NCBI RefSeq assembly: GCF_047663525.1
Contig: NC_092602.1
Span: 10,351,501 to 10,415,500 of the forward strand
Reading direction: 5' to 3'
Source: Anas platyrhynchos
Lineage: Eukaryota; Chordata; Aves; Anseriformes; Anatidae
DNA: 64,000 nt
In this document: piece after piece, positions 426 through 51,946 of the stretch
Numbering within the stretch: the first letter of the stretch is position 1
Layout: each line of letters opens with the position of its first letter
Notes under the pieces: model-generated
What the model saw: the letters and a program-made list of their open reading frames with translations, nothing else
Databases searched by the model: none
Told to the model about the DNA's origin: nothing
Translations under genes and position numbers: made by a program

Positions 426-513
426 AGACTGCCTCTGATTCAAACGGACAGGGAGACCCAAAAGGACATTAGTCCTTTTGGGTCTCCCTGTCCGTTTGAA
501 TCAGAGGCAGTCT
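426..513. repeat. Perfect 42-bp inverted repeat with 4-nt loop
   Basis: The left arm at 426-467 is the exact reverse complement of the right arm at 472-513, with no mismatch over 42 bp. The spacer at 468-471 is ATTA. The next outer pair (425 A against 514 G) does not match, so the symmetry ends sharply. The arms are of mixed sequence, not low complexity. As RNA it would form a 42-bp stem with a tetraloop, and as DNA it could extrude a cruciform. I infer a recent origin, because old inverted repeats accumulate mismatches. A template-switch mutation or an assembly or sequencing fold-back artefact would both give this shape. I do not recognise it as a known transposon. Confidence 0.95.
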
Positions 514-9192: not shown

Positions 9193-9843
9193 TCAGACGT
9201 AGTTCTTCTTGTCGTACTCGCCGTTGGAGGTGGGCCGCCGCGGTGCCGAGTACTTGACGGGGAAGGAGGTCTCGTCGCGCTGTGAGCAGGAGCAGCAGCA
9301 GATGAGGCAGCCCCCGAAGAGCAGCAGGGCCGTGGCCGCCCAGCCAATGTAGAGCGCGGCCCCCATCTCCCGCTTCTGGGATGGCGGCACGGAGGGGTCG
9401 TAGAAGTCGCTGATGACAATGTTGGCGAACCAGCAGAGCGGGACGAGGACCAGGATCCCGCAGAGGATGTAGATGGCCCCGCCGGCGATCACGATGCGGG
9501 ATTTCATCTTGCCGGGCCGGATGCAGTTGGTGCACTGGGCGCCCACCACGGTCACCATGAGCGCCACCAGCCCCAGCAGCGCCACGATGACCGTGAGCGC
9601 CCGGCCCGCCTGCACCTCGGGCTTCAGCGCCAGGATGGAGTCGTACACCTTGCACTGCATCTGCCCCGTGCTCTGCACCACGCAGTTCATCCACAGCCCT
9701 TCCCAGATGGTCTGCGCCACCACGATGTTCACGTCGATGAAGGCTGACACCTGCCACATGGGCAGCCCGCAGGCCAGGATCACCCCCACCCAGCCCAGGA
9801 TGCCCAGCCCCAGCCCCAAAATCTCCAGCGCCGCCGAAGTCAT
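9193..9843 (-). CDS. CLDN5: Claudin-5, tight-junction tetraspan protein
   Basis: A single-exon 216-residue claudin, the usual length for CLDN5 (about 218). Claudins polymerise into tight-junction strands that seal paracellular space, and claudin-5 dominates in endothelium, including the blood-brain barrier. Visible are four hydrophobic segments (about residues 8-27, 82-102, 117-137 and 161-182) and the extracellular-loop signature W30, GLW at 49-51, C54 and C64. Arg81 precedes the second segment. The juxtamembrane cysteine cluster at about 169-176 is a likely palmitoylation region. The tail contains KYSAPRRPT and ends in DKKNYV, the PDZ-binding end typical of claudin-5. The start at 9843 is chosen because it begins [10 protein letters not shown] as claudin-5 does; the same frame stays open 50 codons further upstream but that part is GC-rich and unlike claudin. 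The gene is intronless, and its neighbour on the right is transcribed away from it. Confidence 0.96.
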
Positions 9844-10290
9844 GCTGCTGCTGCCGCTGCTCAGCCCCAGCCTCCGCAGAAGGGACGGCGGTGGCTGCCG
9901 CGCACCTCTCGCCCCCGGGCAGCTGCCGAGCCGGCTCTGAGCGCCGCCGGCCCCGGGCAGCGCTATTTGAGGAGCCGCGGGGCGCCCTCCCACCGCCCTC
10001 CGGCCCTCCCCCGGCCCGGCCCTTTTTCCGCGGGGGGGCTCGAAGCAGCCCTGGCCGCCGCAGAACCGCCCGCCCCGGGGGGAGCCGAGCGGGGCCGAGG
10101 CTGGGGGCGCGGAGCTCCCCCCCTGCTCCCCTGCTGCTCCCCCGCTGCTCCCCCGCTGCTCCCGGCCGCCGGCTGCCGGGGGGCTCCCGCCTGAGCTGGG
10201 GAAGGGTCCCTCGGCTCACGGCACCCTGCTGCCCGCCCGAGCCCCGAGGAGCTCCCGAGGAAGTTTTCACGCTCCTGGGAAAGTGTGGGG
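9844..10290 (-). promoter_or_regulatory. CLDN5: CpG-rich CLDN5 5' UTR and promoter
   Basis: Very GC- and CpG-rich DNA directly upstream of the claudin start, ending abruptly near 10290 where composition turns AT-rich. The minus strand has a weak TATA-like element (CAAATAG) around 9963-9969. No clear TATA box was seen. Several open frames on both strands here reflect GC bias. The exact start site cannot be read from sequence. Confidence 0.55.
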
Positions 10291-18979: not shown

Positions 18980-20639
18980 GGACATCACGGTCAGGAGTAT
19001 TGAGTAATACAGTTAGCAGGAATTTAGTTAACAGAATTGTTTTATTTCTATGGTTTATAAGTTGTAATTGTGATTCAGGAAGGTGCCTCTATGATAATAG
19101 AGAATGGTGAGTGGCCTTGGTCTGAAGCCGTAACAACAGAGGATAAGAGCATTAATGGAAAGTTAGCAGTTATGGGTGTTTGGTGAACAAATGGTGACCA
19201 TTTATATACATTATAAAAAAGTCAAAAATCAGGGGAAGAGTGGACACACCAAAGAACTGTAGGGGACAAAATTAAAATAGGGTGCTGAATGACTAATGGA
19301 ATGACCGACAAGAAAGTTATGGGGATTTCAGTAAAACCGATTTCCAAAAGTAGCCAACGAGAAGGTTGTATCTGCCCAGGTAAATCAGATTGCTGGTATA
19401 ATTTTATATTAACACAGACTGTAGTAATTAGCTGGTTTTGGCTGTACTTCCTACAACAGTGGGACAAAACTAAAACAGCCCCTAAAATCATCCTTATTGG
19501 CATTGGGAACTAGCCAATGGCAAGTTTCAAAGGTGTTACCGAGATGGGAAAAGGCTGAAGACCAAGACCACAAACTAATAATAGATGCACTTAGTATGGT
19601 GCAAGATAATGTATCTTTAACTCTTAGTTGTGTACAAGCACAGTTATGGATGCAGGCAACGGCTGCCTTGATCATTAGGGAAGGAAGTGAAGGCATTTTT
19701 CCGGCTGAAGTCCCAAAGACTGTTTGGGACAATGCCAATGATTTTGAGAAGTTCCAGTCTTGGTGGACTCTGGTTAACAATGGACCTATGATCCCATTGT
19801 TAACATGGTTACTGCCTTTGTGCTTACTGTAAGTAATGCCAGTTTGTTATCCACCCCATCATTGCACTAGGATTAAACCATGAGGAGACAGTGCTCTATC
19901 CTTCGGAGCATAGAACATGGGCACGGATGGAGAATGGGAAATGGCAGTCTGTAAATCTAGAATCATGTGTTACCTGGGAACAACAAGGATTTATTTGTGA
20001 AAGCAACACAGTTGATGCTCAGGATGTATGTCTTGACACAGAGCAAGGTGTTTGCCACTTTGAAATTCATCCAAATACTCGTCAAAAGACTGTGCTTGTA
20101 TGTATTGGTCAAGGCTGTGTGTGTTTAAGAACTGCTTGTGCTTTTGTAGAAGTAGATAAGGAGAACATAACTCTCCCTAGCGAAAATCATTGTATTTGTA
20201 ACTTCTGTATTTTTAACTTTGTTAGAATCGTCAGGTGTGATTTTCTCTATTTGGCACCAGTGGTATCCCACCAGTTGATCAAGTCTAACAACACAATGAT
20301 CACAAGTTATTACTTACACCTATTGGGATGAACCTCACATTAGTGGAGCAACTAGTTAAACACCAAGACCTGATCAAAATTTTAAAAAGCATTCAGGAAA
20401 ATGGAGAGAAGACTCCAATCACTGTCCATCATGATACAAAGGAAATAAGCAGAGTTTTGCAAAGAGTAAAACAAGACAAAAATCACAACTGGTGGGACAC
20501 AGTCTTTGGATGGTCGCCAACTGCAACTGGGATTTTGAAAACATTGTGTCACCCAATTATTGTTTTACTGATATTAGTTGGTACAAGTTTAATATTATCT
20601 TTTGTAATACTTGTTTGGAATTGGAAATTGTTACAATGA
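18976..20639 (+). pseudogene. ERV envelope glycoprotein pseudogene
   Basis: A start codon at 18976 overlaps the pol stop (ATGA), the usual retroviral arrangement, and opens a leader with a hydrophobic stretch (IVLFLWFI) that stops after about 40 codons. Env-like reading continues in pieces at 19289-19513, 19497-19832, 19891-20331 and 20328-20639, which lie in three different frames. The cysteine-rich piece at 19891-20331 and the last piece, with a helical stretch, WW pair and a membrane anchor at about 20545-20625, look like the transmembrane subunit side. The last two pieces overlap as ATGA at 20328-20331. The gene is broken and not expected to make a functional glycoprotein. Confidence 0.7.
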
Positions 20640-40075: not shown

Positions 40076-43000
40076 CTCTCTGCCATTTGGCCGTCAATCT
40101 AAAGTAAAATGTTTTTGTTTTGCTGCTTTGGACTAAGCAGCAAAATCAGTTCGTGGTGCTCGCAAAGGAAACCCAGCTTGGAGTAATTCCTGTTTGGTCT
40201 TTCTGGAATTCAAAGTTATTTTTTAAAACTCTCAAGTGGGAAGAAATGCAAGGGAGTTTCACAAGCTGTGCCATGCAAGGCTGCTAAGGAAACATGCTCA
40301 AAAGAATGACTTCATGAGAGGGGAACTAATATTTTGACTTTTTTTTTTAATTTCCCATGGGAAGGCTAATCTTTAAGAACACAGAATCCTCTGAGGCCAA
40401 TAAAATTGAGATTTGAAGAAGCAAAATGCTGTTTCATTGTTAGGACCATAAAATACAGTTTGTTTTTATTGCATTTCTTTTTCCTTTCAGGAAAGCACTA
40501 GGTTTAACAGCTGTAATATATTATTCTAGCACCCCTTGTTGTTGGCTTTCCCGCTATTGTTTCACTTGCATTTTATCTTCAAGATCTCAGTCAGGTTAAA
40601 TGTGCTTTCTTATTTTATGCAGATACTTAAAGGCATCGCACTGCAGCAGTGCCCAACCTATTCCAGATTTGTGTTTTACTATCATTTGGTGACAATTTAG
40701 TTATCTTCCATTTTGCAAAGCAATAATAACATGTATTGATTTAAATGTAACGGAGCTAACATAACTGTTAATTGCTTATTGGCAGGACTTATTCGCAATT
40801 CTCTCTTTTTTTAAAGTATTACTCTGTTTAGGAATGGGCTAATAATATATTGTATGTGCGCATGTGTGATTGTGGGGGATGTTTATATACCTGCCAAGAA
40901 AGCATTGTCATGGAAATAGCTGTGGTTCATACATGGTCAATTCTAATCTAATGGTGTGAGGGATTGTTTTGTTTTCAACAGCTGTTTAATAACCAAGGTC
41001 TACTTGGACAGTTTCATTTATACTGTAGCTGTCAGTTGCTATCACAGCAGAGGATCAAGGAACCCAACAATGCTATGTGAAGGTTCATTAAGACCTCTCA
41101 TGCATTTGAAATCTAGTTTTAATTGTAATATCAAGATGGTGTGTGTTGTTTTTTTTTAACAGATGCAGCTATATATGTTGTAATGACAGTACAAGTCCTT
41201 ACATAGGCTTTAAAAAATGTTTTTTATCACTATCTAAAAAAAAAAAAGTGGGAAAAAAGAAAACCCTATGCCCAAACTTCACTGCAGTAGTGAGTCCTGC
41301 ATCCAGGTCATTTATGAAGACACTGAAGATAACTGGCCCTATAATGGAGCCCTGGGGTACCCCACTAGTGACTGGCCACCAACCTGATGTAACCCCATTT
41401 GCTGTAACACTTTGAGCCTGACCCACCATCCAGCTGTTCACCCATCTCATTGTGTACTTGTCTAGCTGTATGCTGGACATTTTATCTAGAAGGATACTGT
41501 GAGAAACGGTATCAAAAGCTTTGCTGAAATCCAAAAAGGGTTTAAGATCTTTATCTCTATTACAGAACAGAAATACGCTAGTTAAGGTCATATGCAAACA
41601 CACATACTTTAGAAGTGTCACAAAATGTATTTATTTAGTCGGTGAGTCTGTTTTCCTTTGAGTAGACCAGCGAGTTGTTCGTGTTTAGCCATTTCTGATT
41701 CTGTAGATTGTATCACAAATGGATTAGTGTAGTGCAGAGGTAATCTCAGCAAATGCTTTGGCATTTTAAATGCCTGTTAGTAAGCTGTTTTTGAAGAGAG
41801 AACCTCTACGTTAGCAAATCTCAGCGATGTTCTTAAGATACGTTTTTTATAGTAGCAGAATAAAATCTTTAAAATCCAAGCATGTAGTGTGGGTTTCTGT
41901 GCTCATTTTATGACTGATTATTTTCCCACTTAGTATTTGTTTCTTAAGTCTCAGAACGTGTAGGTTGCTGGGTGGGTGTTTTTATAACTTGAGCTGTTCT
42001 TCTTAAGGTATTTATGGATTTGAGGTCTAAATCTGTCTGAATGAAGAAAAACAAAAAATGGTATTTTTTCTTCATAGGCAGGATGAAATTAATGGAATGT
42101 AATATAGTCAAAGAGTAAGTAATGATAATTTCTGTTAATGGATTTTTAAATCATTTTCAAACTACTTAGAGCAGAAAAACATGCTTTGAGACTTCTATAC
42201 TTAACAGTCTAGTAGATCTATTGCATATATCTTTAACCTAAAAATATCTTTTCAATAAAATAAGATGTTATTATTTTCCTTCCTATTTTTTTTGTAAACT
42301 CCCTAGGTTCTGGATGAGATTTCTGAACATGGCATTAGAATTTACCAGCTCCCTGATGCAGATTCTGATGAAGATGAGGAATTTAAAGAACAAACCAGAG
42401 TTTTAAAGGCAAGTATCACTATTTCTCAATTTATTATTTTGCTGCAATAACTATGCAGGCCTACTGTGTGCTAAAAATACTTCATTCCTTTATAATATGT
42501 ATTGAAAAGTTTTCTTCATGTTTGCTGTGTGAACTATAATCCTTTTTAGTCCATTTGCTTTGTCAGAGTTCCAAATGTAGTGTTACGACTTTTCTTTTTT
42601 AAATGTAAGCAACTGTTCACCAAGAACTGTGAGTTGCTGTCTGTTTTCTGACTCAAACGTTTTAACATGTAAGCAAAAGAGAATGTGCAGTTACTATACT
42701 AATTAACAACTTTCCTCTTGTTAGAATCGATAATAAGGGTTTTAATGAAGTCATTTCCTCTTCGTGTTGTGATACTTACAAAGATGCTTGAAGAACATAT
42801 CTGAAATTCTCAGTCTCTAGATACTTTAATCTGAATCTGAAGTATGTTTCTGTTGGCTGTTTTCCATGCATGATGTTATGTCAGATGACACATTATGCCC
42901 AAACTGTATTTCAACAACAGTCAAGTGTTCCTAAAGCAAAGCGTCATTTCCTTTTCAAGTTCTGTTAAGACAAACTGATCCTAACAAGACTGCAGGTATT

Positions 43001-49000: not shown

Positions 49001-51946
49001 TCTTAACATTGCTTTTCCTGTGATACCTGTGGGGTTGTCACTGAAGAGACACCTTGTTCAGACAGGAGCAGTACTTGTCTGTATTCTGGGCAAAACATTA
49101 CAGATGAAATCTTGTTGGCTAAGCTGTTTATCTGTGATTTGTATTAATGGTATGGAATCCATTAGGAAGCCATGTGATTCACTTTTAACTCAGTAACTTT
49201 CACTCTCATTTTAGAAGCTGGTGTCCTTTCTGTGTTGCTACAGCAGTTGCAAGTAATAGATACCCAGTAGTTACACAATATATTACACTAAGCTTTAGTC
49301 CTGGCATAAAGAGTAAAGAAGGAAGGCACAGAAGAGCCAGATTGTGAATTTTACAGTTGAGCTGCCAGGATTCATATAGTGCAAATGATTTTCTTAAGAT
49401 ATTTACGTGCATTCTCTCTAAACTCAGTTATTACTTCAAACTTCAGCACGGTCAGGTTTTAGTGTGCGGTATCAAGCATTACTCATAGGTTGCCTGTTAA
49501 GCATGCTGTTACGAAACGCATAGTTGTTTGATAAGGGCTCTTGAGAAGCTCCAGTTTAAGAACAAGAAACCATTCTGGACTGTTTGCATATCAAATGCTC
49601 AACAAAAGCCAAAACACAACGCAGTGAAATACACTGGTTGTCTCTCGTAGATAGATATGCTTAAATGTCTTTTTATTTTTCTTTATTTTTGGGCCAACTT
49701 TCTCTTATTAAAAGGAAACATTAATGTCTTGCTATGAACTAACAGCCATGGGATACAACAACGTGCTTAGTTTAACAGGTTTGTGTGTGCCTGAAGGTCT
49801 TCCTACTGAATTATGCTGAAAGCTTCAGCAACCTGCCATTATTTAACTAAGGGATAGGACTAACTCTTCACCAGTAGATCTCAAAAGCTCTACGTAAAAA
49901 TGTAAAAATAAAATCTTACTCAATGGTGGAGCAGAGCAGATCTAATTTTTTTGTCCTGTCTTAGATTTGAGTCTTCCAGGGTATGATTTCTTTCATGGTG
50001 TGGGCATGTTTGTGTCAATTAAGGTTAAGAACATGTGAGACTCAGTGATGTAATCAAGTCTAAAAATATGATGTTGATTATTAGCAGAATGCTGTGTTTG
50101 AGCAAATCTCCATAATACATGTGCAGCAGTATCTTTCCCTGTGATTACTGAATGGCTGCTATTTTGGGAATATTTCAGGGCTCAGTTTCAAGTGCTCTTG
50201 GGAAGGAAAGTAGGCGAGCTTCCAATAGGCTGGTTTTATTCTGATGGTAAAGCTGCAGAGGGGAAATGCAAAAGACCAGGTGTCTTACATTTGTACAGGT
50301 TCATCTATGAAACTTTATTTTCCTGAACCAGGGAATCAACGCAACCCTTTATTTCTGAGACTTTCTGCTTTTCTTCCTTCCTTCAACAGTGTCATCTTTT
50401 TGATCAGAGGCCTTCTGACTGTTTAGCAGAAAGAGGTAGACAGATATATAATAATCACTACAGACTTAACTGTACCACACTGTTCCTGTGTGAATCTCCT
50501 TCTGTCAGGGTTTATCTGTGCTGTAGTCACAGGAACCTGAATTAGCCTTTCTCTGTGCTGCTGCAGCAAGAGATGTGTCCCAGTCTGAAGCCAGCTAGTT
50601 CTAGGCAAGCTCTGCTACCTCCAGCTATGCTCCGATCCCTGCACGTCTTTTCTCTCACTCTTTCCCAAACCCGCATCTGAAGTAAGGCAAGAAAAAGTGA
50701 TAGAGGCACCTTTAGCTTATTCTACCCCTGTTCCATAATGTTTCTTTGTGTTTAAAACAATCAAGACAGCTCAATGCTGCATAGATTTACTTGCACGCAC
50801 ACTGCAGATAATTCTGGATTGAATGTAATGAAGTAACTGGTATCTCTGTGGCTAATATGATTGCCTGGATGAAAATACAGTGTAGTTGTTTACACGGTGC
50901 TTTGTGAGTTGAAAAGTTTTTCATCTTCCTCCCCACCTCCCCCCCCCCCCAAGAAGGTTATCCTCTAAGTATATATTCCTGAAGAATAAAGCTTAATGGC
51001 AGAGTATTAAAACAATACAATTATTATTAGAATAATAAACATTTGCTATGCAAGCAGCAGATCCATTATGTGATCTCCAGTTTGAAATGGTATCATTTTA
51101 TACAGCGTGCATGGAAATTGCAGCCTATTTTTTCCACTTTGTATGACAGAACACATGTTTATTTGTATACCAAATTAGAGGTATTTGCATATGCATTTTT
51201 AAAATCTGCCTTAGTGTTTCTTTTTCTTTCTTAGGAGTGTTAAGAAAGAAAAAATGGAAAAAAAAAAAAAAAAAAAAGCATGATACATGTAAAAAAAAGG
51301 ATAAAAGAGGCATGATACATAACAAGCATTTTTTTGTCAGATGGAAATTAACTTGTCAGCATCCTAAGAAAATGTCTTTACGAAAAACAGTTATTTCCAA
51401 GAAAATGTCATCATTTAGATACTAAAAAAAAAAAAAAAAGTTTAATATGTTTATCCTGTCTTTCCAAATTTTATAAGCATCTTTCTATTTTGTCTTTGAA
51501 GAAGTTTTTAAATTCTGTCAGCAATTTTGGCTGTTACTGTTTCTAAAAACTTGTGTAATTATCTGGTTAGCCACAAGATGAGTATTCATGAAGGATAGCG
51601 TGCTTTGAGTGCTTGTATCAGAGCAAAGCTTCTTTGCCTCACTCAAGCATTGTATCTCTGTACATACATGACGAGAATGTTTTTTCTTTATCCTAGAATA
51701 AATATTAATTCACAGGTGCAAACAGCTGCAAACATTGCTAGCTTCAAAAGATCTGGATTTTATTGACTAATTCTCTTAAGTATTTTTACAAAACTCTTGT
51801 GAAAGTTGGATGTAATGCTCTAAAGAATCTGGGATAGGAGAAATTGTCCTAAACATGTGGGTGTTTTTCTCTTACAGCTGCGCCGCATGCAGGAGATGAT
51901 TGCACAGATGCAAGCCCAAATGAGGATGAAGCCCAGTGATGATTAA
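28420..51946 (+). CDS. SEPTIN2L: SEPTIN2-like septin GTPase, complete 11 coding exons
   Basis: Septins are GTP-binding proteins that form hetero-oligomeric filaments at the plasma membrane and cytoskeleton and act in cytokinesis, ciliary barriers and exocytosis. Coding exons: 28420-28446, 29604-29703, 31196-31282, 31887-32010, 36564-36698, 37151-37268, 42307-42408, 43226-43371, 44377-44460, 45468-45525 and 51878-51946. These sum to 1050 nt, giving 349 residues with every junction in phase. Landmarks are the polybasic helix RKSVKKG (29-34), G1 GESGLGKST (43-51), switch Thr77 (needed for hydrolysis in the SEPT2 group), G3 DTPGYG (100-105), G4 AKAD (181-184), the septin unique element with GRLYPWG (254-260) and a short C-terminal coiled coil (about 323-344). 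It resembles SEPTIN2 far more than SEPTIN5 throughout. The C-terminus ends MKPSDD and lacks the longer glycine-rich tail of human SEPTIN2 (361 residues). The start has A at -3. The symbol is descriptive; orthology to true SEPTIN2 needs a tree. Confidence 0.93.
28447..29603 (+). other. SEPTIN2L: Intron 2 of SEPTIN2-like gene
   Basis: 1.16 kb, phase 0, AT-rich, with a short TG repeat near 29300 and poly-T near 29335-29352. Nothing else seen. Confidence 0.75.
29604..29703 (+). CDS. SEPTIN2L: SEPTIN2-like exon 3 (N-terminus and polybasic helix)
   Basis: 100 nt after acceptor TTGTCAG and before donor TTG|GTAAGT. Encodes [19 protein letters not shown] and the first beta strand FTLMVV. The polybasic stretch binds phosphoinositides in the family. 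Confidence 0.95.
29704..31195 (+). other. SEPTIN2L: Intron 3 of SEPTIN2-like gene
   Basis: 1.49 kb, phase 1. No repeat family or RNA gene recognised. Confidence 0.8.
31196..31282 (+). CDS. SEPTIN2L: SEPTIN2-like exon 4 (P-loop)
   Basis: 87 nt. Completes the G1 motif GESGLGKST and encodes [20 protein letters not shown]. Donor CAG|GTAAAT. Confidence 0.96.
31283..31886 (+). other. SEPTIN2L: Intron 4 of SEPTIN2-like gene
   Basis: 604 bp, AT-rich, nothing recognised. Confidence 0.8.
31887..32010 (+). CDS. SEPTIN2L: SEPTIN2-like exon 5 (switch I and G3)
   Basis: 124 nt. Encodes [12 protein letters not shown], with the catalytic-type Thr, and [12 protein letters not shown], the G3 motif. Donor CTG|GTATGT. 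Confidence 0.96.
32011..36563 (+). other. SEPTIN2L: Intron 5 of SEPTIN2-like gene
   Basis: 4.55 kb, AT-rich, with short poly-T tracts. No exon, RNA gene or transposon recognised. The 128-codon minus frame at 34754-34368 has no known motif. Confidence 0.7.
36564..36698 (+). CDS. SEPTIN2L: SEPTIN2-like exon 6
   Basis: 135 nt. Encodes [19 protein letters not shown] and [14 protein letters not shown], the most conserved septin core block. Donor TGG|GTAAGA. Confidence 0.96.
36699..37150 (+). other. SEPTIN2L: Intron 6 of SEPTIN2-like gene
   Basis: 452 bp, AT-rich, nothing recognised. Acceptor TTGGCAG. Confidence 0.8.
37151..37268 (+). CDS. SEPTIN2L: SEPTIN2-like exon 7 (G4)
   Basis: 118 nt. Encodes [19 protein letters not shown] and the G4 motif AKAD, then a charged helix KERERLKRR. 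Donor AGA|GTAGGT is a weaker match than its neighbours. The open frame continues 25 codons into the intron. Confidence 0.95.
40043..40070 (+). repeat. Poly-T tract (28 T)
   Basis: Homopolymer inside intron 7. Confidence 0.85.
41262..41545 (-). mobile_element. CR1 LINE fragment (reverse-transcriptase core)
   Basis: On the minus strand the reading [17 protein letters not shown], then [15 protein letters not shown] and INDLDAGL, are reverse-transcriptase landmarks of CR1/Jockey-type LINEs. The frame is open over the fragment but ends in unrelated intron sequence on both sides, so both the 5' part and the usual CR1 3' tail are missing. The catalytic YADD box that would follow is not present. Confidence 0.88.
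42307..42408 (+). CDS. SEPTIN2L: SEPTIN2-like exon 8 (before a GC donor)
   Basis: 102 nt. Encodes [19 protein letters not shown] and [15 protein letters not shown]. The donor is AAG|GCAAGT, a GC donor with otherwise perfect consensus. Using the GT four bases further on would break the frame. Confidence 0.93.
42409..43225 (+). other. SEPTIN2L: Intron 8, GC-AG type
   Basis: 817 bp, starting GCAAGT and ending CAACTAG. GC-AG introns are a minor class of U2-type introns. Nothing else recognised. Confidence 0.85.
43226..43371 (+). CDS. SEPTIN2L: SEPTIN2-like exon 9 (septin unique element)
   Basis: 146 nt. Encodes [20 protein letters not shown] and [19 protein letters not shown], the start of the septin unique element used in filament interfaces. 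Donor GGT|GTGAGT. Confidence 0.96.
43372..44376 (+). other. SEPTIN2L: Intron 9 of SEPTIN2-like gene
   Basis: About 1.0 kb. A short tandem TTTAAGTAA-type repeat lies around 43834-43860. Nothing else recognised. Confidence 0.75.
44377..44460 (+). CDS. SEPTIN2L: SEPTIN2-like exon 10
   Basis: 84 nt. Encodes [19 protein letters not shown] and SERLKRTG. Donor CAA|GTAAGT. Confidence 0.96.
44461..45467 (+). other. SEPTIN2L: Intron 10 of SEPTIN2-like gene
   Basis: About 1.0 kb, AT-rich, nothing recognised. Confidence 0.75.
45468..45525 (+). CDS. SEPTIN2L: SEPTIN2-like exon 11 (linker and coiled-coil start)
   Basis: 58 nt. Encodes [19 protein letters not shown]. This linker is the part most unlike human SEPTIN2. 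Donor GAG|GTAAGG. Confidence 0.93.
45526..51877 (+). other. SEPTIN2L: Intron 11 of SEPTIN2-like gene
   Basis: 6.35 kb. A 12-C run lies at about 50939-50950, and poly-A tracts at 51258-51277 and about 51424-51439. A GC-richer patch lies at 48180-48260. No exon recognised. Confidence 0.7.

Follow-up and report, generated by a model that had tools for sequence, protein, structure and literature searches.

The 64-kb window, i.e. the whole stretch of DNA that was analysed, carries close to its beginning a perfect hairpin that has most probably arisen by a recent, one-step fold-back template switch in a bird lineage, in which, as we infer, one of the arms served as the template for its partner. Its left arm (positions 426–467, + strand) and its right arm (positions 472–513, + strand), both 42 nt long, are separated by a loop of just 4 nt, read from the sequence as ATTA (positions 468–471), and each arm is the exact reverse complement of the other, with all 42 of the 42 positions in agreement. 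When 60 positions were compared outward from the arms, the very first one was already mismatched and the remainder matched irregularly; the symmetry of the arms ends abruptly at both ends, the flanks being unrelated to each other. The first-pass annotation had described both the perfect 42-bp inverted repeat with its 4-nt loop and the sudden end of its symmetry, and both descriptions are thus borne out. At the level of DNA, too, such a sequence is expected to form a hairpin or a cruciform.

The inverted-repeat scan of the 64 kb, covering perfect arms of at least 9 bp with loops of up to 20 nt and counting overlapping registers separately, yielded 23 rows, the longest one being the hairpin with its arms of 42 bp, followed by a runner-up of 13 bp (positions 51221–51253). 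When the window was simulated eight times with an order-3 Markov model, the longest arms were 10–12 bp, and arms of at least 42 bp with loops of 0–20 nt would be expected, from the base composition alone, about 2e-19 times per 64 kb; with a simulated maximum of 12 bp and an expectation of this size per window, the earlier statement that chance cannot produce the hairpin stands. Further perfect inverted repeats, with 11–13-bp arms and 6–10-nt loops, were observed at the site of the runner-up as well as at positions 19773–19804 and 40118–40145. With the 42-bp hairpin excluded, arms of at least 11 bp account for 8 rows, or approximately 6 distinct sites, versus 0.4 per simulated window; template switches of smaller size may have left these other inverted repeats with arms of 11–13 bp. 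From the same scan, a pair of short inverted repeats that overlap each other—one with 9-bp arms at positions 558–580 and the other with 11-bp arms at positions 567–594—starts 44 nt past the hairpin; the cause may be a local tendency to switch templates, or no more than a high AT content.

According to the mechanism proposed for the origin of the hairpin, the growing 3' end would have folded back over the 4-nt loop during DNA synthesis, whether this took place at a replication fork or at a broken strand end, and would have formed a few base pairs with the newly synthesised strand to which it belongs. The folded end would then have copied about 40 nt as the reverse complement, after which the new strand would have returned, or been joined, to the downstream sequence. 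The fork and the break are not distinguished by sequence alone, and function need not be invoked for the hairpin. Three causes had been put forward by the first-pass annotation, and the template switch among them fits best because of the short loop, the perfect copy, the sharp ends and the size within the published range; the hairpin RNA is left with its fold and sub-threshold scores, and the artefact is less likely.

A template-switch mutation requires one segment to be exactly reverse-complementary to a nearby one, and this is what was found here, at 42 of 42 positions. In great apes, for which one study gives 1503 gold-standard template switches, the copied pieces have a median of 12 and a maximum of 128 nt (PMC7954356); the copied length of 42 nt lies inside this range, but it is long relative to the median, which speaks against the template switch. 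The same study states that 65.0% of the great-ape switches lengthened the sequence and that the patterns making up the majority result in one inverted repeat (PMC7954356). Concerning yeast, breaks are described in PMC11724301 as gaining templated inverted duplications via fold-back priming; most of these measure about 5–34 bp and the local ones 10 to more than 150 bp, the junction with the other end having 0–5 bp of microhomology. Loops of 4 nt are enriched in those rRNA hairpins that underwent instantaneous compensatory changes (56.0% vs 42.1%; PMC8794818); the largest switch-like pattern of that study, 59 bp, failed its quality control, and this counts against a switch of 42 nt. The same has to be said of the pure-insertion ancestor: as read from the sequence, the return point would share no microhomology with the terminus of the copied arm, and a double copying of two bases would have to be assumed. 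Among the papers listed by the literature searches, none reports this locus or surveys birds for short-range template switches.

With regard to the direction of copying, removal of the right arm leaves the join GGAC-ATTA-GT on the + strand, offering a 2-bp fold-back primer (GT on AC) and the same loop as the present one, whereas the mirror case, with the left arm removed, gives a primer of 0 bp. The left arm is tentatively regarded as the original—and would therefore be the older one—with the right arm as its putative templated inverted copy, because of this difference in the primer and because the left arm starts 17 nt past a strong splice-acceptor-like site; both hints are weak, a 2-bp primer being likely to occur by luck in about 1 of 16 cases. 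With 0 differences among the 84 arm sites, the 95% upper age is about 9 million years at an assumed rate of 4e-9 per site per year and about 24 million years at an assumed 1.5e-9, provided that the arms were not homogenised later; the event is presumably recent. The earlier argument that age would erode the hairpin holds only if later template switches did not keep the arms identical.

The acceptor-like site just mentioned is a pyrimidine-rich tract ending in CAG (positions 373–408, + strand), the AG of which, ending at position 408, ranks 9th of the 8856 AG sites that the two strands of the window contain, by a weight matrix that is approximate and not fitted. One frame from position 411 is open for 31 codons with the right arm omitted and is also open with the right arm in place (positions 294–545, 84 codons), and its openness is therefore uninformative on the ancestral state. 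A coding exon starting at 408/409 and running into the left arm, the idea of which was prompted by the acceptor-like site and the open frames, was rejected: the best + strand donor candidate within positions 395–760 ranks 905th of 6753, i.e. it is poor, and the open frames that connect the acceptor-like site with the left arm have no relative in Pfam or the Protein Data Bank. The search of the open frames of the same stretch in a large protein database—admitting only proteins of about 240–760 residues, with a query region that stopped four residues before the end of the stretch—returned 39 candidates, 0 of them at E up to 1, and a conserved coding exon is therefore unsupported.

An artefact of sequencing or assembly, by which a fold-back molecule or a mis-joined contig would have added a false second arm, is considered unlikely. 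According to PMC12870357, fold-back artefact reads occur in long-read data, can recur at one place and reportedly can tangle an assembly graph, and library artefacts from structure-specific sequences are the subject of PMC10908179. The two example reads of PMC12870357 are, however, near-perfectly palindromic over their whole length, whereas here only the 42 bp are symmetric; from these examples, a simple fold-back artefact would be predicted to have reverse-complementary flanks, and the 60 positions compared do not show them. Since the unrelated flanks on both sides would need a second false join, the artefact becomes less likely, a compound artefact made by two such joins being possible. A small, recently inserted mobile element that carries terminal inverted repeats might likewise be palindromic and sharply bounded, as the hairpin is, but this origin is hardly credible. 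The arms meet at the 4-nt loop and leave no space for the interior of an element, and a target-site duplication is not seen by eye at 425/514, where the left flank ...GATGTTAGAA and the right flank GTGACAAATT... share no common end repeat. Moreover, a second copy is absent from the 64-kb window down to the level of 12-mers, none of the arm 12-mers recurring outside the hairpin on either strand; the earlier designation of the surroundings as unique DNA is valid within the window. As for a foreign source of the arm, a phage, virus or prokaryote was rejected after 0 exact matches of a 27-mer to viral contigs and of a 22-mer to prokaryotic genome contigs.

The hairpin could, alternatively, be a functional hairpin-RNA locus, a young microRNA or siRNA precursor, the perfection of which would reflect the use of its stem; this is judged very improbable. 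The RNA of positions 396–543 folds with −96.2 kcal/mol as compared with a shuffle mean of −35.6 (z of −14.4, 200 shuffles), and scores from several microRNA models fall on the hairpin, all below the respective cut-offs, with mir-2300 having the top bits (41.7 of the 90 required) and MIR474 being the nearest to its cut-off (37.0 of 48). A 42-bp perfect stem would, however, be expected to fold in this way and to score on hairpin models. Over positions 396–560, the predicted fold amounts to about −102 kcal/mol with the hairpin intact versus about −22 with either arm removed. Over positions 350–620, Rfam gave 14 matches with E values of at most 5, each below its own cut-off, while in the whole window 0 matches reached the gathering score; a known RNA family was ruled out on the latter ground, and sub-threshold microRNA matches would be expected of any perfect stem. 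There is a published route from a template switch to a microRNA, and for human microRNA loci, MIR633 being one, PMC8794818 infers that template switches gave rise to the perfect stems. In the microRNA cases published there, the bulges came after the perfect phase (PMC8794818), which makes perfection favour youth over selection. Equally doubtful, in our estimation, is the idea of a hairpin-RNA gene caught at birth, in which a lineage-specific switch a short way downstream of the strong acceptor-like site, within a putatively transcribed stretch, would have produced a perfect 42-bp stem, one that would already be transcribed and processed to small RNAs ahead of the first bulges.

The genomic setting of the hairpin is best defined by the claudin ORF at positions 9193–10215 (− strand), which matches the Pfam family PMP22_Claudin and lies about 8.7 kb from the hairpin. 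Among the best 120 of the 2072 matches of its translation, a claudin-5 cluster of 238 members that takes its name from the bird Acridotheres tristis exhibits 96% identity over the full length, followed by 84–87% identity to turkey and chicken entries and 79–84% to those from crocodile, turtle and tuatara, the first match by E-value being a longer fish claudin with 57% identity. Since this ORF matches the bird claudin-5, the window is avian, in agreement with the bird origin assumed by the first-pass annotation, and holds CLDN5; the hairpin itself is in DNA with no apparent evidence of coding. Farther along the + strand, the exons at about 29.6, 31.2, 32.0, 43.3 and 51.9 kb are taken by us to be septin-2-like from their resemblance, and the first exon at about 62.8 kb (+ strand) is on the same grounds presumed to be SEPT5-like. 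The 29.6-kb ORF, which is the sole septin-like piece searched in this manner, gave no match in Pfam. The septin-2-like exons (29600–52000, + strand) thus precede the SEPT5-like first exon (62800, + strand), which is distinct from them, and this arrangement suggests that in this bird CLDN5 and SEPT5 have a septin-2-like gene between them. The left neighbour is presumably CDC45, as in the human gene order; three short motifs of its C-terminus were not found in the window, this being a weak test. In addition, the window contains a reverse-transcriptase fragment at positions 41199–41630 (− strand; Pfam RVT_1, E of 1.7e-14), which is presumably CR1-like, and consecutive open frames at positions 19428–20639 (+ strand), by eye resembling the remains of an endogenous retroviral envelope, the three pieces of which had no match in Pfam.

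By itself, the hairpin is one further instance of a known process. If real, it would represent a clean and young bird example of a one-step mutation that looks in a standard alignment like several clustered changes, and it would allow one to ask how long a perfect 42-bp palindrome with a 4-nt loop survives in a vertebrate chromosome, as well as whether such events, as possible raw material, seed new small-RNA genes.

Among the systems known, the correction of a quasipalindrome to a palindrome (the Ripley model, as cited in PMC7954356) also ends as a perfect inverted repeat, but, unlike the event proposed here, it requires a pre-existing near-perfect repeat. The yeast fold-back insertions at double-strand breaks share with the hairpin a local inverted copy beside its source and a similar size range; the yeast site described in PMC11724301 has, however, a 10-bp imperfect inverted microhomology and a loop of 41 nt, whereas here the loop has 4 nt and the primer possibly only 2 bp. 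The RNA hairpins born by template switch, represented by MIR633 (PMC8794818), have in common with the present one a perfect stem, the length of tens of bases and the one-event kind of origin; they differ by transcription, processing and later bulges, for none of which the present hairpin gives evidence. Finally, although the copy of 42 nt contrasts with the median of 12, the hairpin resembles the short-range template switches of great apes, as treated by the four-point model in PMC7954356, in being a perfect local inverted repeat with a short distance between the source and the copy and a size below 128 nt.
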